Positions 3,774 to 19,077 of a stretch of 64,000 bases of DNA are shown here, piece after piece. Numbering within the stretch: the stretch's first letter is position 1; each line of letters begins with the position of its first letter. A model generated the notes under the pieces. That model saw only the letters and a list, made by a program, of their open reading frames with translations. It did no database searches and was not told the DNA's origin. Source of the stretch: Hyphomonadaceae bacterium (GTDB taxonomy: Bacteria; Pseudomonadota; Alphaproteobacteria; Caulobacterales; Aquidulcibacteraceae); NCBI GenBank assembly GCA_016791445.1, contig JAEUMP010000006.1:124001-188000 (forward strand), in the 5' to 3' direction. Position numbers and translations under genes: made by a program.

Positions 3774-3786
3774 TTCCCTCTTCCCC

Positions 3787-4674
3787 TCAGGCGTGATGGG
3801 CCGCGGCGTCTTCGCCGAGGCGTCTGATGTCACGACGCACATCCTGGCCCGACAGGATGGCGGCGAAGTCGTTCAACAAGCGGTTAAACCGCTCGGGCTC
3901 TTCCAGATGCGGCGCGTGGCCAGAACGATGGAACGGCGCGCGCGCGGCGTTCGGCGCGGCTTCCGCCACGAACGCGCTGACGGCGGGCGTGTAGAGTTTG
4001 GAGCGCATGCCGTGCGTGACGAGCATGGGCGTGGAAATACGCGCGAGATCATCGCGCACGTCGGCATTGCAGAGAGAGTCCCACGCCGTCGCCATCAAAT
4101 CGGCGTCATTGTCGGCGAAAGACTCTTCAAACACGCGCAACAGCGCCGGTGCAGGTTTTTCCCCGGCAAGCGCATTCGCCGCGACGCGCGACGAAAACTG
4201 TTTCCAGTCTTCTTTCATCCGCAGCATCGCCCGCGCGCAGTCGAGCGCATCGAAACCGTCCGCGAGACCAAGCCGCCAGGCGACGTCGTTGAGAATGCGC
4301 GGCGTCATGTCGATGGTGACGAGCCCCGCAATGCGCGCGCCGCGCCCGCCGCCGAGCAGCTTCCACAGCACGGTTGCGCCCATGGACCAGCCGACAGCGA
4401 CGACGTCTTCGAGATCCAACGCCGCAAGCAGCGCCTCGATATCGTCGGCCATGGCCCCGATCGTCGGCGCCGCCCCTGCCCGGGACCGTCCATGACCGCG
4501 CAGATCCGGCGCGATGACGCGGCGGGTGCGGGCGAAATGATCGATCTGGGGCTTGAAGAAGGCGCCGGTGGCGGCCCAGCCGTGGACAAGCAGCAACGGC
4601 GCCGCGTCCCCGGATCGGGGTCCCTCGTCCGCGTACGCCAATGGCGCGCGACCGGGCGCTTCCAGGAGCGGCAT
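3787..4674 (-). CDS. Alpha/beta-fold hydrolase
   Basis: A 295-residue alpha/beta hydrolase. The oxyanion-hole region LLLVHGWAATG and the nucleophile elbow VGWSMG (Ser) are clear; the catalytic His is probably in the C-terminal FHRSGHAPH segment, with an Asp upstream. No signal peptide, so cytoplasmic. It is the first gene of the minus-strand group with the TonB receptor and MFS carrier, ending 13 bp before the receptor start, and is divergent from a TetR regulator. This context suggests it hydrolyses an imported ester or lactone, but the substrate is not identifiable. Esterase, lactonase and dienelactone hydrolase remain open. Confidence 0.88.
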   Translation of the reverse strand: MPLLEAPGRAPLAYADEGPRSGDAAPLLLVHGWAATGAFFKPQIDHFARTRRVIAPDLRGHGRSRAGAAPTIGAMADDIEALLAALDLEDVVAVGWSMGATVLWKLLGGGRGARIAGLVTIDMTPRILNDVAWRLGLADGFDALDCARAMLRMKEDWKQFSSRVAANALAGEKPAPALLRVFEESFADNDADLMATAWDSLCNADVRDDLARISTPMLVTHGMRSKLYTPAVSAFVAEAAPNAARAPFHRSGHAPHLEEPERFNRLLNDFAAILSGQDVRRDIRRLGEDAAAHHA

Positions 4675-4755
4675 AGCCTCTTTCGCTTCCTCGCGAGCGT
4701 CGCTTCGGCGACACTCGTTTTGTCTTGTCTTGTCCGCTCACTTAGCGGCTAATTG

Positions 4756-4779
4756 AAACATGAGTCAACGTTCAAGTTT
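4756..4779. promoter_or_regulatory. Candidate TetR operator (inverted repeat)
   Basis: The imperfect palindrome AAACATGA-N8-TCAAGTTT matches at 7 of 8 arm positions. It lies between the divergent hydrolase (start 4674) and the TetR gene (start 4802). A second perfect inverted repeat, CCGCT-N5-AGCGG, is 7 bp away at 4734-4748. Size and position suit a TetR-family operator controlling both directions (inference). Confidence 0.45.
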
Positions 4780-4801
4780 GACGGTCGGGAGGGGAATCGG
4801 G

Positions 4802-5446
4802 ATGGCGGCAGACGGCGCAGGGAGCGAAAACGCCAAGGCCCCCAAGACGGAGCGCGGCAGGCGGACGCTACGGAAACTGCTCGACGCCGCTGCCCTGGAG
4901 TTCGGGGAACGGGGCTTCCACGAGGCCTCCATCGCCGGCGTGACCAGCCGGGGCGGCCTCTCGATCGGGACCTTTTACGTCTATTTCGACTCCAAGGAGG
5001 CCATCTTCCGGGCCCTCGTGGAGGACATGGGCCGCCTCACCCGCGCCTGGATCGGGGACCGCATCAAGGGCGCGCCGGACCGCCTCACCGCCGAGCGCGT
5101 GGGCGTGACCGCCTACATTGAATTCGTCCGGCAGCACAAAAACCTGCACCGCATCGTCACCGAGGCGCACTCCGTCGCCCCCGACGCCTACCGCGCCTAT
5201 TACGAGACCTTCGCTGAAGCCTACCGCCGCAATCTCGAAGAGGCCGCCGCCCGCGGCGAGATCAGCGACGGCGACCACGAGGAGCGCGCCTGGGCGCTGA
5301 TCGGCATCGGCTCCTTCCTCGGCTGGCGCTACGCGATCTGGTCCGACGACGTCGACATCGCCGAAATCGGCGCCGCCGCAGGCGATCTCATCGAGAACGG
5401 CCTTGCGCCCCGCCCGCCCTTCGCGCCGCGAAAGGCCAAGCCATGA
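4802..5446 (+). CDS. TetR/AcrR-family regulator
   Basis: A 214-residue one-component regulator. The N-terminal helix-turn-helix is clear: TLRKLLDAAALEFGERGFHEASIAGVTSRGGLSIGTFYVYF, then SKEAIFRALVEDM; the rest is the ligand-binding half. The ATG at 4802 follows GGGAGGGGAATCGG, a strong ribosome-binding site. An upstream ATG at 4760 lacks one and would place the candidate operator inside the gene, so I choose 4802. The stop overlaps the start of the acyl-CoA synthetase gene (ATGA), so the two are co-translated. A fatty-acyl or acyl-CoA ligand is plausible from that coupling but is inference. Confidence 0.9.
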   Translation: MAADGAGSENAKAPKTERGRRTLRKLLDAAALEFGERGFHEASIAGVTSRGGLSIGTFYVYFDSKEAIFRALVEDMGRLTRAWIGDRIKGAPDRLTAERVGVTAYIEFVRQHKNLHRIVTEAHSVAPDAYRAYYETFAEAYRRNLEEAAARGEISDGDHEERAWALIGIGSFLGWRYAIWSDDVDIAEIGAAAGDLIENGLAPRPPFAPRKAKP

Positions 5447-6945
5447 TCGGCCCCGCGATTTTCGATTTCGCCGCAAAGCGCGCGGAACTGACGCCGGACA
5501 AGGTCGCCTTCGAGGAACTCGCCACCGGGCGGCGCGTCACCTACCGCGCGTTCAACGACCGCGCCGCGCGCGTCGCGCAATTGCTCTCCGACGAGGGCGT
5601 GCGCGAAGGCGACCGCGTCGCCGTGCTGTGCCGCAACCGCATCGCGTTTTTCGAGATCCTGTTCGCCTGCGCCAAGGCCGGCGCGATCATGGTCCCGCTG
5701 TCATGGCGCGCACCGCCTGCGGAACTCGATGGCCTCGTCGCCGACAGCACGCCGAAACTGCTGTTCCACGGCGCGGAAGACGCGGACGCCGCCCGGACGC
5801 TGAACATCCCGGCGCGCATCGCGCTCGATGCGCCGGACGGCTACGACGCGCGCGTGGAAGCAGCCTCGCCGCTGAAGGCGCGTGACCGCTGGCCGTCGGG
5901 CGATTGCTGGTATCTGATCTACACGTCCGGCACGACGGGCGCGCCGAAAGGCGTCATCCAGACCTACGGCATGGCGATGGCGAACTACGTCAACACGCGA
6001 CAGGCGACGGGTCTGCGCGGTGAAGACGTGATGCTGAACTTCCTGCCGCTGTTCCACACGGCCGGTATCAATCTCCACACCCTGCCGCTGTTCATCGCTG
6101 GGGGAACCTCGCTTATCGCGCCGCAGTTCGATCCCGATGAAATGCTGGATCTACTCGCCGGAAAGCGCCTCGATCTGTTCTTCGCCGTGCCCGCCATCTA
6201 CCAGCAGATCGCGCTGCATCCGAAGTTCGCGCAGGTGGACCTCTCGCATGTCCGCAACTGGGGTTGCGGCGGCGCGCCGTTGCCGGACGTGCTCGTCGAA
6301 ACCTACAAGGCGCGCGGCGTGCGCGTGTGCAACGGCATGGGCATGACGGAGACCGGCCCCACCGCCTTCCTCGTGGAGTCCGAGCGTGCCTGGGACAAGA
6401 TCGGCACAGTGGGCAGACCTCAGATTCTGACCAGCGTGCGCATCGTCGATGCAGACGGCGTCGATGTGCCGGAAGGCGAAACGGGCGAGCTCCTGTTTGC
6501 CGGCCCGAACATCACGCCCGGCTACTGGAACAAGCCCGAAGAGACCGCGAGAGCCTTCTACGAAGGCGGCTGGCTGCGCAGCGGCGACCTCGCGCGGCGC
6601 GACGCCGACGGCGACTACTTCATCGTCGGTCGGTCGAAGGACATGTATATCTCCGGCGGTTCAAACGTGTATCCGGCAGAGGTCGAGAACGTGCTGGCTG
6701 AACATCCCGACATTCTCGAAGCCGCGATCATCGGCGTGCCGGATGAACGCTGGGGCGAAGCGGGCGAAGCCTATGTGCTGCTGCGGCCGGGGCATGCAGC
6801 GCCGGAAGAAAGCGATCTCACGCAGTTCCTGCGGGCGCGCCTCGCGCCATACAAGGCGCCGAAGCGCTATGTGTTCGTGCCGGATTTCCCGCGCACGGCG
6901 GCCGGCAAGGTGCAGAAGCACAAGCTGCGCGACTTCACGGGGTAA
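5443..6945 (+). CDS. AMP-dependent acyl-CoA synthetase
   Basis: A 500-residue member of the ANL superfamily that activates a carboxylic acid with ATP and CoA. Visible motifs are the P-loop-like YTSGTTGAPKGV (about residue 165), GMGMTETGP (A5), YxSGDLARRD (A7), GRSKDMYISGG (A8) and the C-terminal catalytic lysine motif PRTAAGKVQK (A10). Length is usual for FadD/FadD3-like ligases. It starts inside the stop codon of the TetR gene, so it is likely under that regulator. The acid could be a fatty, aromatic or branched acid. It ends with an 11-bp convergent overlap with the globin gene. Confidence 0.93.
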   Translation: MIGPAIFDFAAKRAELTPDKVAFEELATGRRVTYRAFNDRAARVAQLLSDEGVREGDRVAVLCRNRIAFFEILFACAKAGAIMVPLSWRAPPAELDGLVADSTPKLLFHGAEDADAARTLNIPARIALDAPDGYDARVEAASPLKARDRWPSGDCWYLIYTSGTTGAPKGVIQTYGMAMANYVNTRQATGLRGEDVMLNFLPLFHTAGINLHTLPLFIAGGTSLIAPQFDPDEMLDLLAGKRLDLFFAVPAIYQQIALHPKFAQVDLSHVRNWGCGGAPLPDVLVETYKARGVRVCNGMGMTETGPTAFLVESERAWDKIGTVGRPQILTSVRIVDADGVDVPEGETGELLFAGPNITPGYWNKPEETARAFYEGGWLRSGDLARRDADGDYFIVGRSKDMYISGGSNVYPAEVENVLAEHPDILEAAIIGVPDERWGEAGEAYVLLRPGHAAPEESDLTQFLRARLAPYKAPKRYVFVPDFPRTAAGKVQKHKLRDFTG

Positions 6946-7333
6946 GCCGCCGCGCAACGATGGCGTCGACGCGGGCGATGAGATCGGCCCAGCCCGACTC
7001 CATCGAGGGCGTCCAGTCATCGCCGCACTGCGTCTTGGTCACTGCGCGCATCGTTGCGTAGAACGAGACGAAGACATCCGGCGCAACGCCAAGATTCTGA
7101 TGGTTCACCACTTCGCAACCGATCAGATTCGCCCCGTAGCCATGGGGATTTTCGATGTCGAGCGCCGCCTCGATCGCCTCATAGAGCATGTGCGCCTTGA
7201 TGCCGCCGTCGGCGTCGCGCTGGAACAGGGGCGCTGTATCCGGGTGCGCCGCAAACATGCGCGCATAAATCTCCGCCGCAGGATCGACACCGCGCTGCGA
7301 GAGACACTCGAAACTCTCGGCGACGCCGCTCAC
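6935..7333 (-). CDS. Single-domain bacterial globin
   Basis: A 132-residue protein with a globin-like helical pattern: SFECLSQRGVDPAAEIYARMF (A-B helices), APLF (CD region), and CEVVNHQNLGVAPDVFVSFYATM, where H78 fits the proximal F8 haem ligand and the sequence after it matches the flavohaemoglobin/Vitreoscilla-globin style. The distal residue is not obvious. The start is a GTG at 7333 that overlaps the TGA of the upstream GNAT gene (GTGA), implying translational coupling; reading the frame further upstream only gives an out-of-frame shadow of the GNAT. Likely role: O2 or NO binding. The haem assignment rests on one His and overall pattern. Confidence 0.72.
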   Translation of the reverse strand: MSGVAESFECLSQRGVDPAAEIYARMFAAHPDTAPLFQRDADGGIKAHMLYEAIEAALDIENPHGYGANLIGCEVVNHQNLGVAPDVFVSFYATMRAVTKTQCGDDWTPSMESGWADLIARVDAIVARRLTP

Positions 7334-7890
7334 CGCCGACGCTCGAAGACAATCGTCGGCGCGCCGCCGTACTCCGTGCGCCGCAGTTCGCGGAAGCCCA
7401 CCTTCTCCGCCACGCGGATCGACGCGCCGTTCTCCGGCGCGATAATGCACACGAACCGGTCCGATTTCAGATTGGCGTCGCCCCACGCCGCCGCCGCGGC
7501 CACGGCCTCGCTCGCCACGCCCTTGCCATGTGCGGCCGGCGCCAGCGACCATCCCATCTCCGGCGCGTCGCCGAAGGGCGGCTCGATCTCGCGCCTGAAA
7601 TCCGCGAGGCCCACCTCACCGAGAAAGGCGCCGGTCGCCTTGTCCTCGACGACCCAGAACCCATAGCCGAGCATCGCCCAGTGGCCGTGATAGCGCAGAA
7701 GGCGCGCCCATGTTTCGCTCCGCGAGAACGGCCGTCCGCCGATAAACCGGGTCACGTCCGGATGCGCCCACATCGCCGCGCAGGCGTCGAAGTCCGAAAG
7801 CACATGGCCGCGCAGGATGAAACGCGGCGTGTCGAGTACCGGGATGAGGACGGGCGATTGAACGGGCGATTGGATTGGGGCTGTGCTCAT
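7330..7890 (-). CDS. GNAT-family N-acetyltransferase
   Basis: A 186-residue RimJ/RimL-type acetyltransferase (Acetyltransf_3-like). TPRFILRGHVLSDFDACAAMW opens the domain; WSLAPAAHGKGVASEAVAAAAAW is the acetyl-CoA-binding motif A and ENGASIRVAEKVGFRELR the motif B region. The ATG at 7890 is preferred; an in-frame ATG at 7926 would reduce the gap to the divergent flavoprotein gene to 8 bp. The stop overlaps the GTG of the globin gene. Substrate unknown: protein N-termini and small amines are both possible. Confidence 0.9.
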   Translation of the reverse strand: MSTAPIQSPVQSPVLIPVLDTPRFILRGHVLSDFDACAAMWAHPDVTRFIGGRPFSRSETWARLLRYHGHWAMLGYGFWVVEDKATGAFLGEVGLADFRREIEPPFGDAPEMGWSLAPAAHGKGVASEAVAAAAAWGDANLKSDRFVCIIAPENGASIRVAEKVGFRELRRTEYGGAPTIVFERRR

Positions 7891-7934
7891 CGGTCCGTCT
7901 TGCCGGGCCGGCCTGCCCGTGTCCATTGGCGGCC

Positions 7935-9119
7935 ATGACGACCTTCGACGCCATCGTGATCGGCGGCGGCGCTGCGGGCCTGATGGGCGCGGGCGTCGCG
8001 GGCCAGCGCGGGCGCCGCGTGCTGCTCCTGGAACACAACGCCCGCGTCGGGGAGAAAATCCTGATCTCAGGCGGCGGGCGCTGCAACTTCACCAACCGCG
8101 AAACGCGACCCGACCGTTTCCTCTCGGAAAATCCGCACTTCGCGAAGTCGGCGCTGGCCCGCTACACCGCCGCCGATTTCCTCACCCTCGTGGAGCGGCA
8201 CGGCATCGCGTGGTACGAAAAGACGCTGGGCCAGCTGTTCTGCGAAGGCGCGGGGTCGGCGCGGAAGATCGTGGCCATGCTGCTCGACGAATGCGCGCGC
8301 GGCGGGGTGCAGATCGACACCGGCGTCCGCGTCCACGATGTGCGGCGCACCGACCGCTTCATCGTCGAAACCTCCAGCGGCGCGGCGGAAGCGCCTGTCG
8401 TCGTCCTCGCCACGGGCGGGCCGTCGATTCCGAAAATGGGCGCCACCGATTTCGCGTGGCGCATCGCGCAGAAGTTCGGCCTGCCGCTGACGGAGACGGC
8501 GCCCGCGCTCGTGCCCCTCACATTTGGCGCCGACGATCTCGCCTGGATGCAACCGCTGAGCGGCGTATCGCTCGACGTGGTCGCGCAAGCCGGGCGCGCG
8601 CGGTTCCAAGAGGCCGCCCTCTTCACCCATCGCGGCCTGTCCGGCCCCGCTATCTTGCAGGCGTCGAGCTACTGGCGGCCGGGCGCGGACGTGACTCTTG
8701 ATCTCGCGCCCGGCGTCGATGCGGAAGCGTTCCTGAAGGAGCGCAAACGCACGCGGCCAAAGGCGCTGGCGCGCACGGTGCTGGCGGAGGTGTTGCCGGC
8801 GCGCCTGGCGGAGTCGCTGATGAACCGGCGCGATGACGCCGATCGACCGCTCACGGATCTCAGGGATGCGGCGCTCGCCGAGATGGCGCGCACCCTGTCC
8901 GCCTTCACGGTCCGCCCGATCGGCGACGAAGGCTACGCCAAGGCGGAGGTGACCCGCGGCGGCGTCGACACCCGCGCGCTCTCCTCGCAAACGATGGAGG
9001 CGCGGGCCGTGCCGGGGTTGTTCGTCATCGGCGAGGCGGTGGACGTCACCGGCTGGCTCGGCGGGTACAATTTCCAGTGGGCGTGGGCGTCCGGCTGGTG
9101 CGCCGGGCAGGCCCTTTGA
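7935..9119 (+). CDS. HI0933/YhiN-family FAD-dependent oxidoreductase
   Basis: A 394-residue flavoprotein. The dinucleotide-binding motif VIGGGAAGLMGA lies at the N-terminus, followed by the family signature GEKILISGGGRCNFTN, and a C-terminal FAD motif GLFVIGEAVDVTGWLGGYNFQ. This matches the HI0933-like (BaiN/YhiN) family, whose physiological reaction is poorly defined. The ATG at 7935 starts directly at the Rossmann strand; a longer frame from 7875 would run into the divergent GNAT gene. It stands alone between the GNAT and the tRNA-Ala gene. Confidence 0.93.
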   Translation: MTTFDAIVIGGGAAGLMGAGVAGQRGRRVLLLEHNARVGEKILISGGGRCNFTNRETRPDRFLSENPHFAKSALARYTAADFLTLVERHGIAWYEKTLGQLFCEGAGSARKIVAMLLDECARGGVQIDTGVRVHDVRRTDRFIVETSSGAAEAPVVVLATGGPSIPKMGATDFAWRIAQKFGLPLTETAPALVPLTFGADDLAWMQPLSGVSLDVVAQAGRARFQEAALFTHRGLSGPAILQASSYWRPGADVTLDLAPGVDAEAFLKERKRTRPKALARTVLAEVLPARLAESLMNRRDDADRPLTDLRDAALAEMARTLSAFTVRPIGDEGYAKAEVTRGGVDTRALSSQTMEARAVPGLFVIGEAVDVTGWLGGYNFQWAWASGWCAGQAL

Positions 9120-9225
9120 GGCGACGCAGGGGGACCGAAGATCGCGCCTTGAATCGGCCCGAGGGCGCGTCTATACCCCCCGCTTCGCGAAACGGGCCGC
9201 CCCAATCGGCCCGGCACGATGCGTC

Positions 9226-9301
9226 GGGGCCGTAGCTCAGTTGGGAGAGCGCGTGAATGGCATTCACGAGGTCAGCGGTTCGATCCCGCTCGGCTCCACC
9301 A
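9226..9301 (+). tRNA. tRNA-Ala (anticodon GGC), CCA encoded
   Basis: A complete cloverleaf can be folded. The acceptor stem GGGGCCG pairs with CGGCTCC (one G-U). The D arm starts GCTCAGTTGGGAGAGC, the anticodon stem CGTGA/TCACG holds a loop with GGC, and the T arm contains GGTTCGATCC. The 3' CCA is encoded at 9299-9301. GGC reads GCC, the likely commonest alanine codon in this genome. It is a single tRNA gene with no rRNA nearby. Confidence 0.97.
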
Positions 9302-9337
9302 TCCCTTTCCCCTGTTCGCTTCCTTCGCACTTTGGCT

Positions 9338-9363
9338 TGATCCGCTTGGCCATGGCGGGATCA
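9338..9363. promoter_or_regulatory. Inverted repeat upstream of the ECF sigma gene
   Basis: TGATCC-N14-GGATCA is a perfect 6-bp-arm inverted repeat in the gap between tRNA-Ala and the ECF sigma gene (start 9404). It could be a protein-binding site controlling the sigma-kinase-protease group. Short arms make chance occurrence possible. Confidence 0.25.
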
Positions 9364-9403
9364 TTGCATAAGACTCATGTTCGCATTCGCGGGACGAGGG
9401 ACG

Positions 9404-9997
9404 ATGGACGGCGAAGATCCCATCGAGATCGATCTCAAGACGCTCTGGGACGGGTTCGGCCGGGGCGATCCGAAGGCGCGCGACCGCCTCCTCGCCCTGC
9501 ACTATGACGAGATGCGCCGCGTGGCCCGCAAGGTCCTGCGCGACGAAGGGGCTAAGCTGAACATCCAGCCCACCGAACTTGCGAACGAGGCAGCGATCCG
9601 GCTGATGAACCTCGACCGCATCCAGTGGAAGGAGCGCACGCATTTCCTCGCGATGTCCGCCCGGGTGATGCGCCAGATCCTGATCGACGAGGTCCGCCGC
9701 TTCCGCGCACAGAAGCGCCAGGCGCCGCCGGTCGTCACCCGCTGGGTCGATCACGCCGCCGACGAGAAGGCCCGCGCGCCGCTCGACCTGGAAGCCTTCG
9801 ACGACAGTCTCACCCGGCTCGCCGCGATTGATCCCGACAAGGCGCGGCTCGTGGAGATGCGCTTCTTCGCGGGGCTGACCATCGAAGAGATCGCTCAGAT
9901 GGACGGCATTTCGGAGTCCACCGTGAAGCGCCAGTGGCGCACGGCCCGCGCCTGGCTGCTGAAGGATCTCGGTCAGGACGAGTCGGACGACGGCTGA
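9404..9997 (+). CDS. ECF-type RNA polymerase sigma factor
   Basis: A 197-residue sigma factor of the Sigma70_ECF (PF07638-like) type. Region 2 is visible in LLALHYDEMRRVARKVLRD and THFLAMSARVMRQILIDEVRR, and region 4 in GLTIEEIAQMDGISESTVKRQWRTARAWL. It should direct polymerase to a small regulon. ATG 9404 follows GAGGGACG. The kinase gene starts 2 bp after its stop. Such sigma factors are known to be paired with Ser/Thr kinases (for example EcfK-PknS in Xanthomonas, ECF43), where phosphorylation replaces a classical anti-sigma factor. No anti-sigma gene is present here, which fits that model. Confidence 0.9.
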   Translation: MDGEDPIEIDLKTLWDGFGRGDPKARDRLLALHYDEMRRVARKVLRDEGAKLNIQPTELANEAAIRLMNLDRIQWKERTHFLAMSARVMRQILIDEVRRFRAQKRQAPPVVTRWVDHAADEKARAPLDLEAFDDSLTRLAAIDPDKARLVEMRFFAGLTIEEIAQMDGISESTVKRQWRTARAWLLKDLGQDESDDG

Positions 9998-9999
9998 CG

Positions 10000-12450
10000 A
10001 TGGACCTCGCCCTCGAACGCCGCGCGATGAAGACGTTCGAGGAGTCGCTCCTCGAAGCGCCGGATGATCAGGACGCCTGGATCGAAGCGCAGTGCGCCGA
10101 CGACCCCGCCCTGCGCAAGGCGGCTCTGGCGCTGCTTAACGCCGCCCGCCACGCCACCGCCTTCCCGACAGAAATGCCCGCTGCAGGCTCGACGCGCATC
10201 GCCGAGATCGCGCCGCCGGAACGCGTCGGCGCATGGAAGCTGACGGAACGCATCGGCGCCGGCGGGATGGGGGATGTGTGGCGCGCGGAACGCGACGATG
10301 GCCTCTTCGACCAGTCGGTTGCGGTGAAGCTGCTTCGACCCAGCCTCTACGCCGCCGCGTCGGCCGCCTATTTCGACACCGAGCGCCGCGTGCTCGCGCG
10401 TCTGCGCCACAAGAACATCGCGCAGCTCTACGACGGCGGCGCTGCGGAGTCGGGCATCGCGTGGTTCGCGATGGAATTGCTCACGGGCGATCCCATCGAT
10501 GTGCATGTGAAGAAGAACGCGCTGGAGCCGAAGGCCGTCGCCCAGCTGGTGATCGACGTGTGCGCCGGCGTGCAGCACGCGCACGCGGCGTCGGTGGTCC
10601 ATGCGGACATCAAGCCGTCCAACATCATCGTCGATGGCGACGGCGTGGTGAAACTGCTCGACTTCGGCATCGCGCAGGTTCTGACGGCGCAGGCCGGCGA
10701 CGACAAACTGGAAACCGGCGCCTACCCGCTGACACCCGCCTATTCGAGTCCCGCGCGTCTTGCCGGCGAGCGTCCGACGCCGAGCGACGACGTCTTCGCC
10801 CTCGGCGCGATGCTGTTCGAGCTTCTCACCGGCACACCGCGCGATGCGACGGCGCGCCTTCCGTTATCGCTCGTCGACGCGCTCGAACCGGGCGACCCCC
10901 GGACGGAAATTCTGGAGGGTGATCTCGCCTTCATCGTCGCCAGAGCGACCGATCCGCGCCCCGATCACCGCTACGCCAGCGCCAGCGCCCTCGCGAGCGA
11001 TCTGGAGAACTGGCTCGCATTGCGCCCCCTTGCCGCGCGTCCGCGCGACTGGCGCTACGAGACCAGACTCTTCGTGCGCCGTCACCGCATCGGCGTCGCC
11101 GCCACCGCGGCCGCGATCCTCGGCCTGCTTACGGCGCTCATCGTGACGGGCATCCTGTACAGCAACGCCGAGCACTCCCGCGCCGAAGCGGAGAAGCGGT
11201 TCTCGGAAGTCCGCGCGCTCTCGAAATTCCAGCTCTTCGATCTCTACGACGCACTCGCACAGATCCCCGGCACGACCGAGACCCGCTTCCGCCTTGCGCG
11301 CGTGGGGCAGTCCTATCTCGACAATCTGGTCTATTCGCCCGGCAACTCACCCGAACTGCGTCTGGAGGCCGCCGCCGGGTATATTCGCCTTGCGGAAGTT
11401 CAGGGCGTGCCGACCGTGCCGAACCTCGGCGATCTCGAAAGCGCCCGCAACAATCTGCATCTCGCCGACGTGATGCTGCAGTCGATCAACCTGCCGGGCG
11501 CTTCGCTCGAACGGGCGCGGGCGAACCTGCTGCTCGCCACCATCGCCATCCAGGCGGACCAGGACATGGACGCAGGCAAGAAGCACGTGGCCGAAGCGGC
11601 GCGTCTGCTCGGCCCGCCGCCGTCGACGCCGAACATGGAGTGGCTCGACACGCAGCAGGCGCTCTATCTCCGGGAAATGCAGATCGCCGACTGGGAGGAG
11701 CGTTTCGCCGACGTGCGCGCGATCGCGGCGAAGGCGCTCGCCGCTCTCGAAACCTGGCGCGGAGACATGCGCCTCGACGACAAGTATCCGCGCTGGCGGG
11801 CGCGCGCGATGGCCATGGCCGCAAGCGCGCGCTGGTATCAGGGCGACAAGGTCGGTGCGTTGCCTGTCTATGAGAACGCCAACGCCCTCCTCCGCGAGGC
11901 GCTGGTGCGGATGCCCAACCGCGCGAGCCTGATGAAAGAGCTGATCATCAGCAACTACGAGATCGTCACGACGCTGGAGAGTCTCGGCCGCTCCCGGGAG
12001 GCGATCGTGCGCATGCGCGAAAGCCTCGCCTACACCAGCCGTCTGCTCGAGATCGAAGCCCGCGACCAGAGCCTGCGCCGCATGCGCGCGTTGCACCGCG
12101 ACGCGCTGGCGCAGTTGCTTGCCACGAACGGCCGGTTCGAGGAGGCGCTCCGGGAGGAGGCCGCCGTGGTGGAGGAGACGCGCGCGATCCATCTTGAGAG
12201 CCCCGGCGAGCCGCGCACGCTGCGCGATCACGCTTTTCACGTCATGGTCTTCGGCACGATCAACTGGCGCGCGGGTAACCGGAAGGCTGCCTGCACGCAC
12301 TGGGCGGAAGCCGAGTCCATGTTCAAGACGCTCAAGGCAGGTGCTGCGCTCACGCCGTACGACGAGCGGGTCAATCTCGGATTTGTCACGCACAATCTGG
12401 AGGTCTGCGCCGGCAAGAAGCCCGCTTCCGCCATCAAACTCTCCGAATGA
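10000..12450 (+). CDS. Membrane Ser/Thr protein kinase with TPR-like sensor
   Basis: An 816-residue Hanks-type kinase. A short helical N-terminus precedes the kinase domain: glycine loop GAGGMGDVW (about 86-94), K110 in VAVKLL, catalytic loop H201-A202-D203-IKPSN, D221 in LDFGIAQ, and TPAYSSPARL. The usual HRD arginine is Ala, so this is a non-RD kinase not expected to need activation-loop phosphorylation. One membrane segment follows at about 364-386, then about 430 residues of helical repeats resembling TPRs, probably periplasmic. The gene is 2 bp after the ECF sigma gene, so the sigma factor is the likely target. Confidence 0.93.
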   Translation: MDLALERRAMKTFEESLLEAPDDQDAWIEAQCADDPALRKAALALLNAARHATAFPTEMPAAGSTRIAEIAPPERVGAWKLTERIGAGGMGDVWRAERDDGLFDQSVAVKLLRPSLYAAASAAYFDTERRVLARLRHKNIAQLYDGGAAESGIAWFAMELLTGDPIDVHVKKNALEPKAVAQLVIDVCAGVQHAHAASVVHADIKPSNIIVDGDGVVKLLDFGIAQVLTAQAGDDKLETGAYPLTPAYSSPARLAGERPTPSDDVFALGAMLFELLTGTPRDATARLPLSLVDALEPGDPRTEILEGDLAFIVARATDPRPDHRYASASALASDLENWLALRPLAARPRDWRYETRLFVRRHRIGVAATAAAILGLLTALIVTGILYSNAEHSRAEAEKRFSEVRALSKFQLFDLYDALAQIPGTTETRFRLARVGQSYLDNLVYSPGNSPELRLEAAAGYIRLAEVQGVPTVPNLGDLESARNNLHLADVMLQSINLPGASLERARANLLLATIAIQADQDMDAGKKHVAEAARLLGPPPSTPNMEWLDTQQALYLREMQIADWEERFADVRAIAAKALAALETWRGDMRLDDKYPRWRARAMAMAASARWYQGDKVGALPVYENANALLREALVRMPNRASLMKELIISNYEIVTTLESLGRSREAIVRMRESLAYTSRLLEIEARDQSLRRMRALHRDALAQLLATNGRFEEALREEAAVVEETRAIHLESPGEPRTLRDHAFHVMVFGTINWRAGNRKAACTHWAEAESMFKTLKAGAALTPYDERVNLGFVTHNLEVCAGKKPASAIKLSE

Positions 12451-12505
12451 CCCATTCCACGGCGGCGCGACGCCTTTGCACTATCACCCCGATGGAGATC
12501 GCCCC

Positions 12506-13291
12506 ATGACTGGCTGGCAGCACCTGTCCCAAGAACCGCCGAAGCCGAAGAGGGGATTCTCCAATCCGTTCGGCGGCGCGCCGCGCGACCCATCGGGCGA
12601 TCCGACTGGCGGACAGAAGCGCAAGCGCTGGGGCCTCGCCATTCTCGGCCTGATCGTCGTGCTCGCCGGCGTCGACCAGATGACGGGCGGCAAGATCTTC
12701 AACGAGAGCGGCACGAACCAGTTCGTCCAGCAGAACAACTACGACCCGAGGGCCGGCGTCTGGCAGCCGAAGCCCGGCGAACCGATTCCACCACCCGTCG
12801 ACCTGCCGATCCAGAACCTGCGTCAGGAAACGGAAGTCTGGTGCTGGGCGGCGGTGTCGCAGCAGATCATCTATTCGCTCCGCGGGCAGCAAAACACGCC
12901 GGCGCAGTGCGCCCTCGTGGCGATGGCCAACGGCGCGGAGCCGGGCGTGTGCTGCAACGGCTACAACCAGCAATGCGTCACCACCGGTTCGCTGGACCAG
13001 ATCCGCAGCCTCATCCAGCAATTCGGCGGCCGCCCCTCGAACATCGCCGAGCCCACCGACCCGATGACGCTCTACAAGACGCTGGCCGCCGGCCATCCCG
13101 TCATCATCGCCATCCAGCAGCAGGGCGCGCAGTCCGGGCACGTCATCGTCGTGCGCGGCATGACTTTCATGCAGACCCAGAATGGCATCGAGCCGGTGTT
13201 GCACATCAACGACCCGATGGCCGTCTACACGCAGCCCGTGCCCTTCCGGCAGCTGCAGCAGATGTGGAAGGCCGCAATCATCGTGAACTGA
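12506..13291 (+). CDS. Membrane-anchored papain-like cysteine peptidase
   Basis: A 261-residue protein: a Pro/Gly-rich cytoplasmic N-terminus, one membrane segment (about 42-56, WGLAILGLIVVLAGV) and a periplasmic domain resembling papain-like bacterial peptidases (PF12385 type). Catalytic candidates are C113 in VWCWAAVSQ, H212 in SGHVIVVRG and N235/D236 in HINDP. C149, C150 and C157 could form disulfides. ATG 12506 follows GGAG with 8-nt spacing; the longer frame upstream only shadows the kinase gene. It is 55 bp after the kinase, so the group sigma-kinase-protease may be one unit. Substrate unknown. Confidence 0.82.
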   Translation: MTGWQHLSQEPPKPKRGFSNPFGGAPRDPSGDPTGGQKRKRWGLAILGLIVVLAGVDQMTGGKIFNESGTNQFVQQNNYDPRAGVWQPKPGEPIPPPVDLPIQNLRQETEVWCWAAVSQQIIYSLRGQQNTPAQCALVAMANGAEPGVCCNGYNQQCVTTGSLDQIRSLIQQFGGRPSNIAEPTDPMTLYKTLAAGHPVIIAIQQQGAQSGHVIVVRGMTFMQTQNGIEPVLHINDPMAVYTQPVPFRQLQQMWKAAIIVN

Positions 13292-13312
13292 GCGGACGAC
13301 GCGACGCACAAC

Positions 13313-13343
13313 AAAAAAGCCCCGGCGCCGGCCGGGGCTTTTT
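13313..13343. terminator. Bidirectional rho-independent terminator
   Basis: A perfect stem AAAAAGCCCCGGC/GCCGGGGCTTTTT with loop GCCG is followed by a T-run on the plus strand and, by symmetry, on the minus strand. It ends the plus-strand protease transcript and the convergent minus-strand operon that finishes at 13361. Confidence 0.93.
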
Positions 13344-13360
13344 CAGTTCTGTCGACACGA

Positions 13361-13951
13361 TCAGGTGGAATAGGTGTCCACGCCCTCGTCGTAGCTGTCG
13401 GCGTTCTCGGCGTCCTCGATCTCGTCGCCGCCGCCGCCGTAGTCCGCCGCCACCTCGACTTCGTCGGCGGCGTCATCGGCAAGGTCCTCTGCGGTTTCGA
13501 ATTCGCCGGCTTCCGCCGCATCGACAGCCGCTTCGGCTTTGTCGTCGGCGATTTCCTGATGGTAGTCGGCGTTGTCGAGATCCATCTGGTCGTAGTCCGC
13601 ATCGCGGATGGCCAACTGGGCCTCAAGCGGGTCGTCGCCCTTTTCCTCGACTTCCTTCAGTTCGTATTCGGCCTTGTCCGAAAGCTCCCGCGCCTTGTCG
13701 TAATCCCCGTCGGCGGCGGCCTTCGCCTGGTCGACCTGCAGGTCCTCGGCATTCTCGCGGGACTCGTCGGCGTCACGGGCGTTGGAGATCACTGCGTCGA
13801 GATCGAGATCTGCCAGAGTGCCGTCGGCGGCCGCCTGTTCGAGAACATTGCGGGCCGATTGCTGCGCGCCATCGGAGAGGCTCGCCATCTGGATCTGGAA
13901 ATCGCTCGTCCCCTCCGTGGGGAACAGGTCATCGAGAGTACGTGCGGCCAT
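13361..13951 (-). CDS. Acidic Ala/Asp/Glu-rich helical protein, unknown
   Basis: A 196-residue, strongly acidic protein with no signal peptide or membrane segment. After LDDLFPTEGTSDFQIQMASLSDGAQQ it becomes a run of short amphipathic helices built on Ala, Asp and Glu (AEYELKEVEEKGD, AEAAVDAAEAGEFETAEDLA), ending in a Gly/Asp/Tyr tail. I recognise no family. It is the last gene of the eight-gene operon, 32 bp after the coiled-coil gene and just before the bidirectional terminator. A scaffold or sequestering partner is possible but unsupported. Confidence 0.72.
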   Translation of the reverse strand: MAARTLDDLFPTEGTSDFQIQMASLSDGAQQSARNVLEQAAADGTLADLDLDAVISNARDADESRENAEDLQVDQAKAAADGDYDKARELSDKAEYELKEVEEKGDDPLEAQLAIRDADYDQMDLDNADYHQEIADDKAEAAVDAAEAGEFETAEDLADDAADEVEVAADYGGGGDEIEDAENADSYDEGVDTYST

Positions 13952-13983
13952 GTTTCAAACTCCTCTGCTTCTAGAGGCGCAGC

Positions 13984-14703
13984 TCAGTCGGAATAGGGGT
14001 CATCCTCATCGTCTTCATCGTCGTCGTCTTCGTCGGCTTCCGCCTCGATGGCCTCCTCGCGCTCTTTCGCCTCCTGCTCGATGCGCTCCATTTCGGCTTC
14101 GTGGCGCTCCTGCTGCTGGTCCATCAACTCCTGTTCGCGCGCCTGGCGATCGGCGGCGGCTTCGGCCTCCTCCGCTTCACGCTTGCGCTGGGCGGCGGCC
14201 TCTTCCTCGTGAAGGTTCTCGACGTGCACATCCTCCTGGACCTCACGCACCTCGAGTTCGCCGGCGGCGGTCGCCGTCTCGATCACCTTCTGCGCGGCGG
14301 CGTTCTGGGCTTGTTGCATCTGCTGGGCGTACTGGGAGGCTGCCTGCGCGGCCTGCATGGCCTGCTGTGTCGCCCACGGCGTACGTCCAGATTCCTCGGT
14401 CTGCGCTTCGACCTCGGCATGCTCGAGCGCTTCTGCGGCGCCGTCCACGATCGCCTCGCCCTGCACCTGCGCCTCGGAAACGTCGAACTCCGCCGCCCCA
14501 TCCGCGAGGCCGTCGGCGATCTTGCTTGCGCTTTCGCCGATCGTCGCCATCGACGCGTTCAATGCTTCGCTGATCGTGCCGAGCTGCGACGTCGCGGCCT
14601 GACCGATATTCGTCGCCGCAGGACTGATGGCGTCCTTCACGCCGCCGATGGCGTCGCCGATACGGCCCATGAAACCGCCGGAGGATTTGTCGTCGTCGGC
14701 CAT
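13984..14703 (-). CDS. Coiled-coil protein with acidic tail, unknown
   Basis: A 239-residue protein. The first 90 residues (GFMGRIGDAIGGVKDAISPAA, then ASMATIGESASKIADGLADG) are small-residue amphipathic helices, as in membrane-surface-binding proteins. The middle is Gln/Ala-rich (AMQAAQAASQYAQQMQQA), then a long Glu/Arg/Gln coiled coil, ending in about 20 almost purely Asp/Glu residues. ATG 14703 with AAGGAG 9 nt upstream is preferred over a TTG six codons earlier. It starts 14 bp after the M48-like gene ends. The pattern loosely recalls PspA-like or tail-anchored scaffold proteins; I do not assign it. Confidence 0.75.
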   Translation of the reverse strand: MADDDKSSGGFMGRIGDAIGGVKDAISPAATNIGQAATSQLGTISEALNASMATIGESASKIADGLADGAAEFDVSEAQVQGEAIVDGAAEALEHAEVEAQTEESGRTPWATQQAMQAAQAASQYAQQMQQAQNAAAQKVIETATAAGELEVREVQEDVHVENLHEEEAAAQRKREAEEAEAAADRQAREQELMDQQQERHEAEMERIEQEAKEREEAIEAEADEDDDDEDDEDDPYSD

Positions 14704-14717
14704 CGTCTGGTTCTCCT

Positions 14718-16049
14718 TCAATCACCGACCTGGTCAGGACGCGGCTGCGCCGGCTTCTTCGGCTTCACCGCCAGGACTTTCCCGCATGACGGGTTCGGGC
14801 AGCGGACATTCACGGGCTTTTCGCCCACCAGTGCGGCGCGCTTCACGCGCATCGGCGCCTGACAGGAGACGCAGGTGAGGCGCACCGTGTCGTCGTCTGC
14901 CTTTTCCTTCTTTCCGGCGCCGGCGGCCTTCACTTCCTTCGGCGGGCGGAGGCGTTTGTCTTCCGCGTCGTGGTGTTCGATCACCGCGCGCCAGCCCTGC
15001 ATGTCCTCGCTGCCGTGGAAGTCCCGCGCGAGCTTCAGGCGCCGGGCGATGAAGGGCACCGAGCTCATCGTCGCTTCGACGGCCTGCATGGTCACGTCAT
15101 CGCTCTCGTCTTCCTGCAGCGCCCAGTCCTCCATGTTGAGACGGGCGTGGATCGGGAAGGATTTCAGCGTCCACTGCAGCAACACGCGGCGCGTAATGTC
15201 GAGATTGCCCAGCGCGAGCTGACCGGCGCGATCCGCCGTGATCTCCGAATGCCGCGCCCACGCCATGAGCGGCGCCTCGAACGCGCTCTCGACGATCTTC
15301 GCGGGGTTCAGGAACTGCATGACGCCGTCGCCCATGATGGTGCGCTGCGACTGCTTGCGCCCCATCAGAAGCTCGAACGCCGTGCGCCAGACAGCGTGGC
15401 CGGCGCGCACCCGGCCCATCTCGCGCGCGATCATGAAGGCGAGGTCGTCGCCCTTGAAACTGACGAGGACCGACCCGAGCACGACGAAGGCATAGCTGTC
15501 CGTGCCGAGCGTCTTGGCGTCCCACATCTGCTCGCCGGAAACGTATATCTCCGGCATGCGATCGAGGCCGACGATGCGCGCCATGCGCACGGCGAGCGCA
15601 AACACATCCGGCATCTGGTTTTCCGAGAGGCGCACGCCGTTCACGGACGCTTCGAACCATGGTCTTCCGTAGCGCTCGGAAATGTGATGCGCAGCCGCGG
15701 TCACCGGCCCCAGCGACTGCAGGCGCGACATCGCTTCGGCGTCGAAGCGCCAGAGGAAGGCGTCCACCGGCAGCTGGTAACCCACGCCAAGCGGACGCAG
15801 CCACCGGCACTCCCGGCAAATCACCTCCTGGACAGGCAACTTCGAGCCATCGCCGCCGCAGGTGGTGCAATGGTAGCCCGGCATGTACGCCGCGCCATGA
15901 TCGGCGGCGGCGACGCCCGGCGGCGGCGCATGCATGTCGAGGCCGCAGCCCTGACAGAAGCGCACGCCTGCCTCCGACCGCGTCCCGCAATTGGTGCAGA
16001 AGGCCGCGCCGCCTGCGGGAGGTGTTGTCGGAGGGACGGGCGCGTTCAT
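14718..16049 (-). CDS. Zinc-ribbon M48-like protein with degenerate catalytic site
   Basis: A 443-residue protein. N-terminal zinc knuckles are C18-C21-C32-C35 and C61-C64-C78-C81. The middle resembles an M48 metallopeptidase: FAFMIAREMGRVRAGHAVW aligns with the usual HELGH helix, and SEITADRAG (E269) matches the third zinc-ligand motif. The two zinc histidines are Arg (R209-E-M-G-R213), so the protein should not bind catalytic zinc. A C-terminal CxxC zinc finger (LTCVSC and CPNPSC) follows. No membrane segment is obvious, unlike HtpX. It is in an operon with a second zinc-ribbon protein. A pseudo-protease binding or scaffold role is inference. Confidence 0.8.
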   Translation of the reverse strand: MNAPVPPTTPPAGGAAFCTNCGTRSEAGVRFCQGCGLDMHAPPPGVAAADHGAAYMPGYHCTTCGGDGSKLPVQEVICRECRWLRPLGVGYQLPVDAFLWRFDAEAMSRLQSLGPVTAAAHHISERYGRPWFEASVNGVRLSENQMPDVFALAVRMARIVGLDRMPEIYVSGEQMWDAKTLGTDSYAFVVLGSVLVSFKGDDLAFMIAREMGRVRAGHAVWRTAFELLMGRKQSQRTIMGDGVMQFLNPAKIVESAFEAPLMAWARHSEITADRAGQLALGNLDITRRVLLQWTLKSFPIHARLNMEDWALQEDESDDVTMQAVEATMSSVPFIARRLKLARDFHGSEDMQGWRAVIEHHDAEDKRLRPPKEVKAAGAGKKEKADDDTVRLTCVSCQAPMRVKRAALVGEKPVNVRCPNPSCGKVLAVKPKKPAQPRPDQVGD

Positions 16050-16059
16050 CGCATCGGAC

Positions 16060-17016
16060 CTAGAGGCGCTTCAGGAGTTCGGCCTTCTTGGCCTCGAATT
16101 CCTCGGTCGTGAGGATGCCGCTGTCGCGCAGCTTCCCGAGGCGCTCGAGCTGCTCGATCGGCGAAGGCTCGGCGGCGGCCACAGGCGGTGCAACCGGCGG
16201 CGCCGCAGGGGGCGCAACTGGGGGCGCAACCGGGGGGGGCGTGTACTGCTGCGCCGGTTGTTGCGGTTGTTGTTGTGCGAACGGGTTCGACCCGCCGCCC
16301 ATGCCGGGCACCTTGAGATCCATCTTCGGCATCTGGAAGCCGCCACCCTGCACCGGCGCAGCGCCGCCGCCGCCGGCGAGATCGAGCAGAAGCTTGTTGG
16401 CGACCTTGCGCGGAAAATCGCTTGAGAACTGCCACGCCGTCAGCGCCAGCGCGATGACCATGATGAGGATGTTGAACCCCGCGAGATGCATTGTGTAGAT
16501 GTTCGACGCCGTCATCATCGCGGACAGCACGCCGATCACAGCGAGCGCCGCGAACATGCCGATCGTCGAGCCCCAGTCCACCGACATCCGCGCCTGCACC
16601 ACGGTCTGCTGCGGCCCCTGCGGCGTCAGCGTCAGCGTGCCGCGATAGCGCTGGGTCATGCCCAGCTTCTTGTCGGCGACTTCGACCATGATCGTCGACG
16701 GCGGTTGCTGGCCGATCGGCTGGGCGTTGCACGACGGCAGCGTGCGAACGATGTGATCGAAGGTGGCGCGCTGGTCCATCGGCGCGACGCTCTGCGCCTG
16801 GAAGGCGCCCGCCATGCCGCCGCCCATGCCGAAGCGCGAGTTCAACGGCGGTTGCGGAGGCATCGGCGGCGGCATGGGCGGCAGCGGCGGGGGAACAGGC
16901 GCGCCGCCGCCGGCCGCCATGGGCGCACCGCACGATCCGCAGAATTTCGCCGTCTGCGCATTGGCGGCGCCGCACGCCGGACACGCGACCGTTCCTGCTC
17001 CTGCCGTCGTATTCAT
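16060..17016 (-). CDS. Zinc-ribbon membrane protein with C-terminal SHOCT domain
   Basis: A 318-residue protein with C12-C15-C26-C29 zinc ribbon (CPACGAANAQTAKFCGSCG), a Pro/Gly/Met linker, a globular segment of about 90 residues, two membrane segments (STIGMFAALAVIGVLSAMM and FNILIMVIALALTAW), a long Gln/Pro spacer of repeated PPVAP units, and a C-terminal SHOCT motif (IEQLERLGKLRDSGILTTEE). SHOCT domains are short oligomerisation modules often found at protein ends. It ends 10 bp before the M48-like gene start. Probably the membrane anchor of whatever complex this operon builds. Confidence 0.83.
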   Translation of the reverse strand: MNTTAGAGTVACPACGAANAQTAKFCGSCGAPMAAGGGAPVPPPLPPMPPPMPPQPPLNSRFGMGGGMAGAFQAQSVAPMDQRATFDHIVRTLPSCNAQPIGQQPPSTIMVEVADKKLGMTQRYRGTLTLTPQGPQQTVVQARMSVDWGSTIGMFAALAVIGVLSAMMTASNIYTMHLAGFNILIMVIALALTAWQFSSDFPRKVANKLLLDLAGGGGAAPVQGGGFQMPKMDLKVPGMGGGSNPFAQQQPQQPAQQYTPPPVAPPVAPPAAPPVAPPVAAAEPSPIEQLERLGKLRDSGILTTEEFEAKKAELLKRL

Positions 17017-17114
17017 GTCTGCTGCTCCAACCCCGGATTCGAAGAGATCATACCTTGAAGCGCAAACGCGCGGGAGATCGGGTCAACCGGCTTCTCCGTC
17101 CGCGCGCGCGCCGT

Positions 17115-17585
17115 TCAGCGCTTCGCGAAAATACTCTCCCACCACGCGACGAGCGGATTGGGATTGGCGGGCTTCGGCGGCGTCGGCACGACGCACGCGC
17201 CAGATGGCGGCCCGCAATAAGCGACCGCGCGCACCGACGGCACGATCGATATCTGGTCCCGCGCGACGGCGAGCCTGCCGCCTTCGCGATTGAAGAAACC
17301 TTCGAGCACGCGCGCGCGCATCAGCGCGTCCATGTCCGTCCAGATCGTGCCGCCGGCCGGGATCCGGGCGTCGCGTGTGGCGCAGGACACCTCGAACACG
17401 ACCGTATCCCCCACCCGAAGCCTGCCGCGAAAAACCTGCGCCACCCGCCCGTCGACGCGGCACTGGCCGTGATCGCCGTCGGGGCTGTAGGGCGAGACGG
17501 CGGGCCGGGCCACCTGAAGCACCTCCACCTGGATGTGCTCGGTCGCGGACATGCGCGCCTCTTCATAGACGTAGGGCGGCAGCAT
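17115..17585 (-). CDS. Hypothetical protein, possibly beta-rich
   Basis: A 156-residue protein of unknown family. A beta-rich N-terminal half (IQVEVLQVARPAVSP, GRVAQVFRGRLRVGDTVVFEVSC) suggests a small barrel; a helix (DALMRARVLEGFF) and a Pro-rich tail (PTPPKPANPNPLVAWW) follow. Three cysteines are present but there is no CxxC. ATG 17585 has GGAG 8 nt upstream; an upstream GTG at 17594 is possible. It lies between the 59-residue gene and the zinc-ribbon/SHOCT gene in the same operon. Confidence 0.7.
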   Translation of the reverse strand: MLPPYVYEEARMSATEHIQVEVLQVARPAVSPYSPDGDHGQCRVDGRVAQVFRGRLRVGDTVVFEVSCATRDARIPAGGTIWTDMDALMRARVLEGFFNREGGRLAVARDQISIVPSVRAVAYCGPPSGACVVPTPPKPANPNPLVAWWESIFAKR

Positions 17586-17609
17586 GGTCCTCACTCCACT
17601 CCGGATCGA

Positions 17610-17789
17610 CTATTCGCCGTCGCCGTCACCGTCGCCGCAGTCGTCGCCCTCGTCGATATCGAACTCTTCGGCGACGTCTTCGGCGATGTCCTGGACAGCT
17701 GTGCCCTGAGGCAGTCGATCTTCGATGATGGCCGCGATCCGCGGAACGTCGGGATCGAGGCCGTCTTCATCGGGTTCCCGCGCTACCAT
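17610..17789 (-). CDS. Small acidic 59-residue protein, unknown
   Basis: A 60-codon frame whose ATG overlaps the end of the lipoprotein gene (AATGGTAG), a normal translational-coupling arrangement. The product starts MVAREPDEDGLDPDVP, has a helix-like middle (RIAAIIEDRLPQGTAVQDIA) and ends in an Asp/Gly repeat (GDDCGDGDGDGE). It contains one Cys. Without it the operon would have a 197-bp gap, far larger than most of its other spacings. The acidic tail resembles those of the two acidic proteins later in the operon. Function unknown; the Asp/Gly tail could bind a divalent cation (inference). Confidence 0.65.
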   Translation of the reverse strand: MVAREPDEDGLDPDVPRIAAIIEDRLPQGTAVQDIAEDVAEEFDIDEGDDCGDGDGDGE

Positions 17790-18511
17790 TGGCCGCCCGG
17801 TTGCGGATAACCGCCGCCGCCCATGCCGGCGTGCTGCTGCACGGTGTTCATCATGACGGGCGCCGTCTGGTTGAAGCGCTCGGCGGCGTCGAACATCAGA
17901 TAGGCGCGCCCGCCATTTTGGCCGTTGGAGATCACCGCGATCATGCCCATGATCGGACGCCCCTGCATCGTGGTCTGGAAGCCGACCTGGCCGAACATGT
18001 CGGACGGGTCGTTCATCGCGCCCATGATCTGCGGCGGGCGATCAAAGTAACCCTGCTGGAGGCTCATCACCATCGCCTGCGAGAGCTGCGAGGCGGAGCG
18101 TGACCCGTTCAGCGTGGTCTGGAAGACAGCGCCGGCGGGCGACTGCAGCGGCTGCATGCCCTGCGGCGCACGCGCCTGCATCTGCCCGCCGCCGCCGCCC
18201 GGATAGCCGGGCTGGCTCGGATAGTTGGGTTGCTGCGGGTAGCCGGGCTGGTTCGGATAGCCGGGCTGGCCCGGATTGTTGGGGGCGTTGCTGCCAGGCC
18301 AGCCGGGCTGCTGGGGCTGCCCCGGAGTCGGCTGCATGGGCGGCCAACCGTTGGCGCCGGGGTTTTGCTGACCAGGACCCTGGGCGAAGGGACCCTGCGC
18401 ATTCGGATTGTTCGGATCGTTCGGATTCTGGCCGGCGGGGTTGCAGGCGGCGAGAACGCCGAGCATCGCCAGAACCACTACGCCGCGCTTCAGGTTCGAA
18501 GCTGTCCGCAT
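17783..18511 (-). CDS. Pro/Gly/Asn-rich lipoprotein
   Basis: A 242-residue predicted lipoprotein: MRTASNLKRGVVVLAMLGVLAAC, with lipobox LAAC. It is followed by a low-complexity region of about 85 residues rich in Pro, Gly, Asn and Gln, including repeated QPGYP units, then a globular domain (SPAGAVFQTTLNGSRSASQLSQ, MIAVISNGQNGGRAYLMFDAA). The ATG at 18511 has AGGAGG 7 nt upstream; the ATG at 18517 would sit on that site, so 18511 is chosen. Probably membrane-anchored on the periplasmic side. Family unknown. Second gene of the operon. Confidence 0.82.
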   Translation of the reverse strand: MRTASNLKRGVVVLAMLGVLAACNPAGQNPNDPNNPNAQGPFAQGPGQQNPGANGWPPMQPTPGQPQQPGWPGSNAPNNPGQPGYPNQPGYPQQPNYPSQPGYPGGGGGQMQARAPQGMQPLQSPAGAVFQTTLNGSRSASQLSQAMVMSLQQGYFDRPPQIMGAMNDPSDMFGQVGFQTTMQGRPIMGMIAVISNGQNGGRAYLMFDAAERFNQTAPVMMNTVQQHAGMGGGGYPQPGGQW

Positions 18512-18600
18512 GACCATCCCTCCTTGGCGACCGGGCCGGCCCGTTCCGGGCGAACTCTCGGTCTCATGTCAGGAGAGGCGCAGGGGCCCGGAAAACCGGG

Positions 18601-19077
18601 TCAGAAGCGGCGGCGGCACGCCTCGAGCAGTCGCTGGACGAGGCCCTGGGCGGGCCGCGCAAGCGTGCTTTCATAGTGCGCGCGGTTGGCCGCCAGCACC
18701 GCATCGTTGAGCAGCGGTTCGTCGATCGGGCCTTCGGCGCCGGCGGAGCGCACATAGCGCGCCGAGGCGTCGATGATGTCGGGCCAGTGGCGGTGCCCTT
18801 CGCGGCGGCCCTTCGCAGCCAGCGCTTCGAGTGTCGCCACATACTGGGCGCGACCGTCGCGGTCGGCGTTGGCGACCCCGGTCCACAGGCTCACGCGGCG
18901 CAGGAGCGTCTCGGTGGGCTGGGCGTCGGGATCGACCTTCGCGCCGGCGTCGTCGAGGCGCGCGTTCTGGAACGAGAACCAGCGGCCTCGGCGGCGACGG
19001 TTCTCGCCCTCATAGCCGGGGCTCACGACCCAGCTTTCGGGGGCGATGTCGGCGGGCTTCGGGTTGGCGTTGGCCAT
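18601..19077 (-). CDS. Hypothetical protein, first gene of the operon
   Basis: A 158-residue, soluble, basic-patch protein of unknown family. It starts MANANPKPADIAPESWVVSP after AAGGTG, has an arginine cluster (ENRRRRGRWFSF), and a helical C-terminal half (TLEALAAKGRREGHRHWPDI, RPAQGLVQRLLEACRRR). The frame remains open far upstream but that part only shadows the TetR gene and is rejected. It leads the minus-strand operon and has two palindromes just upstream. Confidence 0.72.
   Translation of the reverse strand: MANANPKPADIAPESWVVSPGYEGENRRRRGRWFSFQNARLDDAGAKVDPDAQPTETLLRRVSLWTGVANADRDGRAQYVATLEALAAKGRREGHRHWPDIIDASARYVRSAGAEGPIDEPLLNDAVLAANRAHYESTLARPAQGLVQRLLEACRRRF

Follow-up and report, generated by a model that had tools for sequence, protein, structure and literature searches.

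The locus lies in a window of 64,000 nucleotides (G000:C6:124001-188000), by which we mean the whole stretch of DNA that was analysed, from a genome of 3.6 Mb in 28 contigs; all positions below are those of the window unless another locus is named. Directly 3' of a tRNA-Ala gene stands an island of ten genes and ~9 kb (~9307-18600, as delimited by synteny), in which three genes on the plus strand converge on seven on the minus strand. The features of the island and its borders are as follows.

9226-9301, plus strand: tRNA-Ala (GGC), found by Aragorn and Rfam; left boundary of the island, outside the system
9404-9997, plus strand: ECF sigma factor of the Sig-70_X6 / ECF43-like type, whose region 2.2 holds QPTE (Thr57) (NCBIfam TIGR02999, motif alignment, tree)
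10000-12450, plus strand: transmembrane Hanks-type kinase, non-RD, with a TM helix at 363-390 and a C-terminal domain of ~425 residues, predicted to be periplasmic (Pfam Pkinase, alignment, hydropathy)
12506-13291, plus strand: papain-like cysteine protease with an N-terminal TM helix (42-62) and a predicted periplasmic catalytic domain (Pfam Peptidase_C70, three-genome alignment)
13313-13343, no strand: symmetric hairpin carrying A- and T-tracts, taken as a bidirectional terminator for both gene sets (read directly)
13361-13951, minus strand: core component, an acidic helical protein of pI 4.05 that genus g11, G001 and G768 also conserve
13984-14703, minus strand: acidic coiled-coil protein, fast evolving; its counterpart in place in g11 is an acidic protein of ~106-110 aa
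14718-16049, minus strand: M48-like pseudo-protease with N- and C-terminal zinc ribbons (core; Pfam M48)
16060-17016, minus strand: membrane protein with a zinc ribbon, an alpha/beta domain, two TM helices and SHOCT (core; Pfam SHOCT and Zn_Ribbon_1, hydropathy, homologues)
17115-17585, minus strand: uncharacterised protein, whose start MLPPYVYEEAR is kept in G001 (comparison with G001)
17610-17789, minus strand: small acidic protein of 59 aa, whose gene overlaps the lipoprotein gene at the latter's end (read directly)
17783-18511, minus strand: lipoprotein (lipobox ...AAC) with a Pro/Gln-rich linker and a conserved C-terminal domain; homologous in G001 and G768
18601-19077, minus strand: flanking gene; G001 and G002 have it next to TetR at sites that lack the island

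The plus-strand genes had been predicted to encode a sigma factor, a kinase and a protease, and the reading frames, together with their Pfam and NCBIfam matches, agree with that prediction in identity and position. The sigma factor, which matches Sigma70_ECF / Sig-70_X6 at 180.5 bits (cut-off 126.15), is followed after 2 bases by a kinase that scores above the Pfam cut-off and whose catalytic domain, predicted to be cytosolic, carries the motifs VAVK, HAD (in place of HRD, hence non-RD) and DFG. The non-RD character originally ascribed to the kinase holds for the window genome and its congener G001, to which this state is limited, but not for G768, a genome of another family, whose aligned kinase is RD. 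The protease matches Peptidase_C70 at 35.8 bits (Pfam cut-off 19) and conserves the Cys of a CWAA motif, the His of (G/N)HV and a HINDP motif, with the catalytic Cys (114 in P0003, 113 counted from Met) and His (213 in P0003) invariant in three genomes. Because of the N-terminal transmembrane helix, its Cys-rich catalytic domain would face the periplasm. Between the convergent genes lies the proposed shared terminator, a symmetric hairpin (AAAAAAGCCCCGG-CGCCGG-CCGGGGCTTTTT) that comes from a direct reading of the sequence and is absent from the list of the automatic scan.

The seven minus-strand genes are tightly packed, with gaps of 10-98 bases and one overlap, and their content is as anticipated: zinc ribbons in two proteins, SHOCT in one of them, similarity to M48 without HExxH, a lipobox, and very acidic proteins (pI 4.05). 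The M48-like protein scores 25.8 bits against a Pfam gathering cut-off of 20.3, and in all ten relatives aligned HExxH is replaced by R-[EQ]-M-G-[HR], so that the first zinc-binding His is an Arg; the third zinc ligand is Ala or Gln in most of the ten. In relatives encoded on plasmids of Tsukamurella, Thermus and Bernardetia the corresponding HE[LF]GH is intact. The protein has no TM helix and is, judged by its sequence, a conserved pseudo-protease whose zinc site has been lost, the conserved loss of the zinc ligand marking it as a pseudo-enzyme that has kept a structural role. In the SHOCT protein a hydrophobic stretch (146-201) offers enough length for two TM helices in the hydropathy profile, so the cytosol is the expected side for both the zinc ribbon and SHOCT, and the lipobox places the lipoprotein, by prediction, in the periplasm. 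AlphaFold models of the M48-like and SHOCT proteins, made from two-row alignments, had mean pLDDT values of 37 and 51, too poor to use. As the original prediction supposed, the minus-strand set is not described as a system in any family library: no PADLOC, PHROGs or NCBIfam family covers the operon proteins as such, PHROGs yielded only similarity to SHOCT, searches of PDB sequences gave nothing convincing, and a literature search on this gene set found nothing.

Metallopeptidase, SHOCT and zinc-ribbon partners have been described around PspA systems (PMC11237479), and the island could be a phage-shock-like variant for membrane maintenance, comparable to operons that combine PspA with a metallopeptidase and SHOCT-like proteins. 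A Pfam scan of the ten island proteins, however, detected no PspA, PspC, Toastrack or Band-7 domain, and we consider this reading very unlikely.

Boundaries and insertion site

The limits of the island emerge from comparison with two congeners. Collinearity between G001 and the window extends from 2742 to 9306, through the tRNA-Ala gene, after which the two diverge, and left-flank synteny with G002 stops at window position 9310. The flank on the right (from window position 18613 or 18677 to ~19770), which contains the gene at 18601-19077 and a TetR gene, is found at island-free sites in both congeners. Because both keep the gene at 18601-19077 beside TetR without the island, it is chromosomal flank and is ruled out as a member of the operon; the island thus ends at ~18600, and of the eight operon genes originally proposed seven stand. 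The tRNA-Ala and TetR sites of G001 itself are without the island, and no M48-like gene occurs anywhere in G002.

Directly after the tRNA-Ala gene, G001 carries an unrelated reading frame (L110, G001:C218, 7512-7849) that starts MQLHPRAPAPPQARLSVGVTGHR..., ends at the contig end and has no Pfam match; it includes a GVTGHR stretch, which we take to recall SLOG-type domains. At the right boundary we found no direct repeat of the tRNA end of the kind that integrases produce (within the window, allowing up to 3 mismatches), and no integrase among the island's own genes in the Pfam scan. The tRNA-Ala gene seems to be a variable insertion site, and the island is best read as a mobile module inserted after it. 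Elsewhere the window contains a gene for a bacterial M2 (angiotensin-converting-enzyme-like) peptidase (31071-32918; 712 bits, Pfam) and, on the minus strand, a match to the serC leader RNA (54534-54585; 42.7 bits).

Recurrence and distribution of the gene set

The two halves of the island, on whose co-occurrence the original prediction depended, are found together at another site in G001 and in another family of the same order in G768. In G001 the whole set lies at a different chromosomal site, beside RND-efflux and P-type ATPase genes (neighbours identified by inspection), in the order lipo-h148-SHOCT-M48-coil-acid converging on protease-kinase-sigma, with identities to the window of 92% for the sigma factor, 70% for the kinase, 63% for the protease and 80% for the M48-like protein. 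In G768 the sigma factor, kinase, protease, SHOCT protein, M48-like protein, acidic protein and lipoprotein also occur together, rearranged: the sigma and kinase genes are divergent from an operon that begins with the protease, the SHOCT protein and two further small membrane proteins (one of them without a match in Pfam) and continues with the M48-like protein, two acidic proteins, the homologue of the acidic helical protein and the lipoprotein, followed by one more gene and then a tyrosine integrase. The G768 protease is 69% identical to that of the window over the catalytic part, and the lipoprotein 41% over 111 residues. A WD40-repeat protein (L037, 1594-2871) adjoins the G768 sigma-kinase pair.

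The set of protease, core and lipoprotein is therefore present in three genomes, two families and three contexts, a recurrence far beyond chance, which rules out a chance neighbourhood. Since the same set recurs in another family with a switch of a different lineage, the parts belong together. The protease in particular is found solely in genomes that carry the core, next to the switch.

A core of four genes (SHOCT, M48-like, short acidic protein and homologue of the acidic helical protein) stands without an adjacent sigma-kinase-protease set in seven genomes of the sister genus g11. Five of these (L006, L031-L034) have the core between the same neighbours, with cysteine synthase and an M28 peptidase on one side (where covered) and GST and TauE on the other; in two it lies elsewhere (L035, G457:C6; L007, G022:C8), the G022 locus being near resolvase-like and RHS-like genes. 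No Sig-70_X6 sigma factor scores above cut-off in five of the seven core-only genomes. Because the core stands without an adjacent switch, the switch is not obligatory and the core can work under other control.

Beyond these genomes the module is scarce. Matches to the M48-like protein occur in 11 of 398 genomes of the order; in addition to the window itself, a class sample of 385 genomes gave a single generic M48 match, and a phylum sample of 398 genomes gave the window's own only, which rules out a wide distribution. Spread by phages, viruses or plasmids was likewise rejected for want of a close relative: plasmids yielded generic M48 matches of ~30%, and no viral contig encodes the protein. 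The module is real, recurring, narrowly distributed and mobile.

Such a patchy spread, the different insertion sites with a tRNA site and an integrase neighbour, and the unrelated accessory frame after the same tRNA-Ala in G001 are also what one would look for in an anti-phage or interbacterial conflict system, in which the switch would respond to attack, with the protease, the pseudo-protease and the acidic proteins serving as effector and control parts. However, PADLOC returned generic kinase matches and two at chance level (12.4 and 8.5 bits), the PHROGs similarity is confined to SHOCT, the M48-like protein has but one weak match of 24%, to a phage, and the conserved place of five of the seven g11 loci is more like a housekeeping role. 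We give a conflict system a fairly low, but not negligible, probability.

Descent and proposed mode of action of the switch

The switches of the window and of G768 differ in descent. In a tree of 33 Sig-70_X6 sigma factors, those of G000 and G001 cluster among unlinked sigmas from the family they belong to (support 100/98), the G768 sigma falls in another clade (95/91), and a joint clade of the island sigmas is rejected (p-AU 1.7e-6). The G768 kinase is 52.8% identical to an unlinked kinase of G022 versus 29.1% to that of the window. With sigmas that do not form a clade, distant kinases and proteases 69% identical, the module carries switches of different descent, acquired by separate pairing or by replacement; this conclusion is drawn from three loci, with long branches in some rows of the tree. 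Sigma-kinase pairs also occur away from the core in G022 and G457 (L069, L070), with a sigma factor 61% identical to the window's, and the pairs themselves may be reshuffled, because for G022 the nearest neighbour of the sigma differs from that of the kinase.

ECF43 sigma factors lack the acidic motif of region 2.2 and become active when a Thr in that region is phosphorylated (EcfK T51, EcfP); such kinase-phosphorylated sigmas are known from Xanthomonas, Vibrio and Hyphomonas neptunium (PMC13147305, PMC8999054). In the window sigma the acidic DxxD is altered to QPTE, with the first Asp gone, Thr third (T57) and Glu fourth, and aligns with the T51 site of EcfK (Q49, T51, E52). By these motifs the sigma factor and kinase are of the phospho-activated type, and the sigma is best read as ECF43-like. 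The predicted switching through phosphorylation of the sigma by the kinase fits this model, since Thr57 occupies the known phospho-site. We found no bipartite promoter motif shared by the sigma gene and the operon in G000 and G001, a weak test on four short sequences.

A rival view is that the island consists of two independent units that happen to have entered at a common hot spot: a kinase-sigma switch of generic type that serves other targets, and a core operon that is expressed constitutively. The solitary cores of g11, the sigma-kinase pairs apart from the core in G022 and G457, and the lack of a shared promoter motif point that way. Against it, three genomes from two families have the halves side by side, with sigmas of different lineages and in different arrangements, chance adjacency within ~10 kb amounts by our own estimate to <1% per genome (given that a genome has one or two such sigmas), and the protease accompanies only the core, next to the switch. 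Independence of the two halves is thus quite improbable, and the best reading is that a phospho-activated switch of the ECF43 type drives a rare mobile envelope module.

We envisage the following mechanism. The C-terminal domain of the transmembrane kinase would sense a periplasmic condition, and the kinase would phosphorylate the sigma factor, most likely on Thr57, in a region where the acidic residues for binding RNA polymerase are partly replaced. The phosphorylated sigma would then transcribe its own genes and the convergent operon, whose products would form a device at the inner membrane. There the SHOCT protein may tether cytosolic zinc ribbons to the membrane, the pseudo-protease may serve as a non-catalytic binding partner that the two acidic proteins, coiled-coil and helical, join in the cytosol, and on the periplasmic side the membrane-anchored protease and the lipoprotein may act. 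The purpose would be to protect the envelope against stress, predators or phage; for an assembly device, the other role suggested originally, there was no evidence. In this mechanism as a whole, a mobile, kinase-switched, envelope-protecting module of ten genes, we place moderate confidence.

Significance and comparison with known systems

Kinase-sigma pairs are predicted in many bacteria and very few have a known output, and the module offers a defined candidate regulon of one sigma, one kinase and one operon. Should it prove protective, it would count as a new envelope defence; otherwise, it provides a clean test case for the phospho-activation model outside Xanthomonas and Vibrio. The kinase-activated type of switch is known, and what is undescribed is the output set of membrane, zinc-ribbon and dead-protease components. 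Tentatively, we propose an undescribed mobile device for envelope defence or stress, in which a membrane-tethered complex of zinc-ribbon and pseudo-M48 proteins, together with a lipoprotein and a periplasmic protease, has been wired separately to different phospho-activated sigma lineages.

The nearest precedents for the switch are the ECF43 systems with Hanks kinases, EcfK/PknS of Xanthomonas citri and EcfP/PknT of Vibrio parahaemolyticus, in which, as here, the sigma gene adjoins that of a transmembrane kinase, no anti-sigma gene is present, and the acidic motif of region 2.2 is altered, with Thr at the phospho-site. The island differs from them in its non-RD kinase and in its output, which is not a T6SS or polymyxin resistance but the zinc-ribbon/pseudo-M48/SHOCT operon and the protease. 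With peptidase family M48 the island protein shares similarity across the protease domain and the ADRAG motif, but unlike that family it has HExxH replaced throughout, the third ligand mostly gone, zinc ribbons at both ends and no transmembrane segment. Operons of PspA-associated metallopeptidases and SHOCT proteins likewise place a protein resembling metallopeptidases at the inner membrane along with SHOCT and zinc-ribbon partners, whereas the island lacks PspA or any other PSP component and has a kinase and sigma factor for its control. Finally, the protease resembles the papain-fold Peptidase_C70 and C39-like enzymes in its Cys and His motifs and its above-cut-off profile match, but is membrane-anchored and encoded with a sigma-kinase pair, with no secretion ATPase or effector context seen around it.
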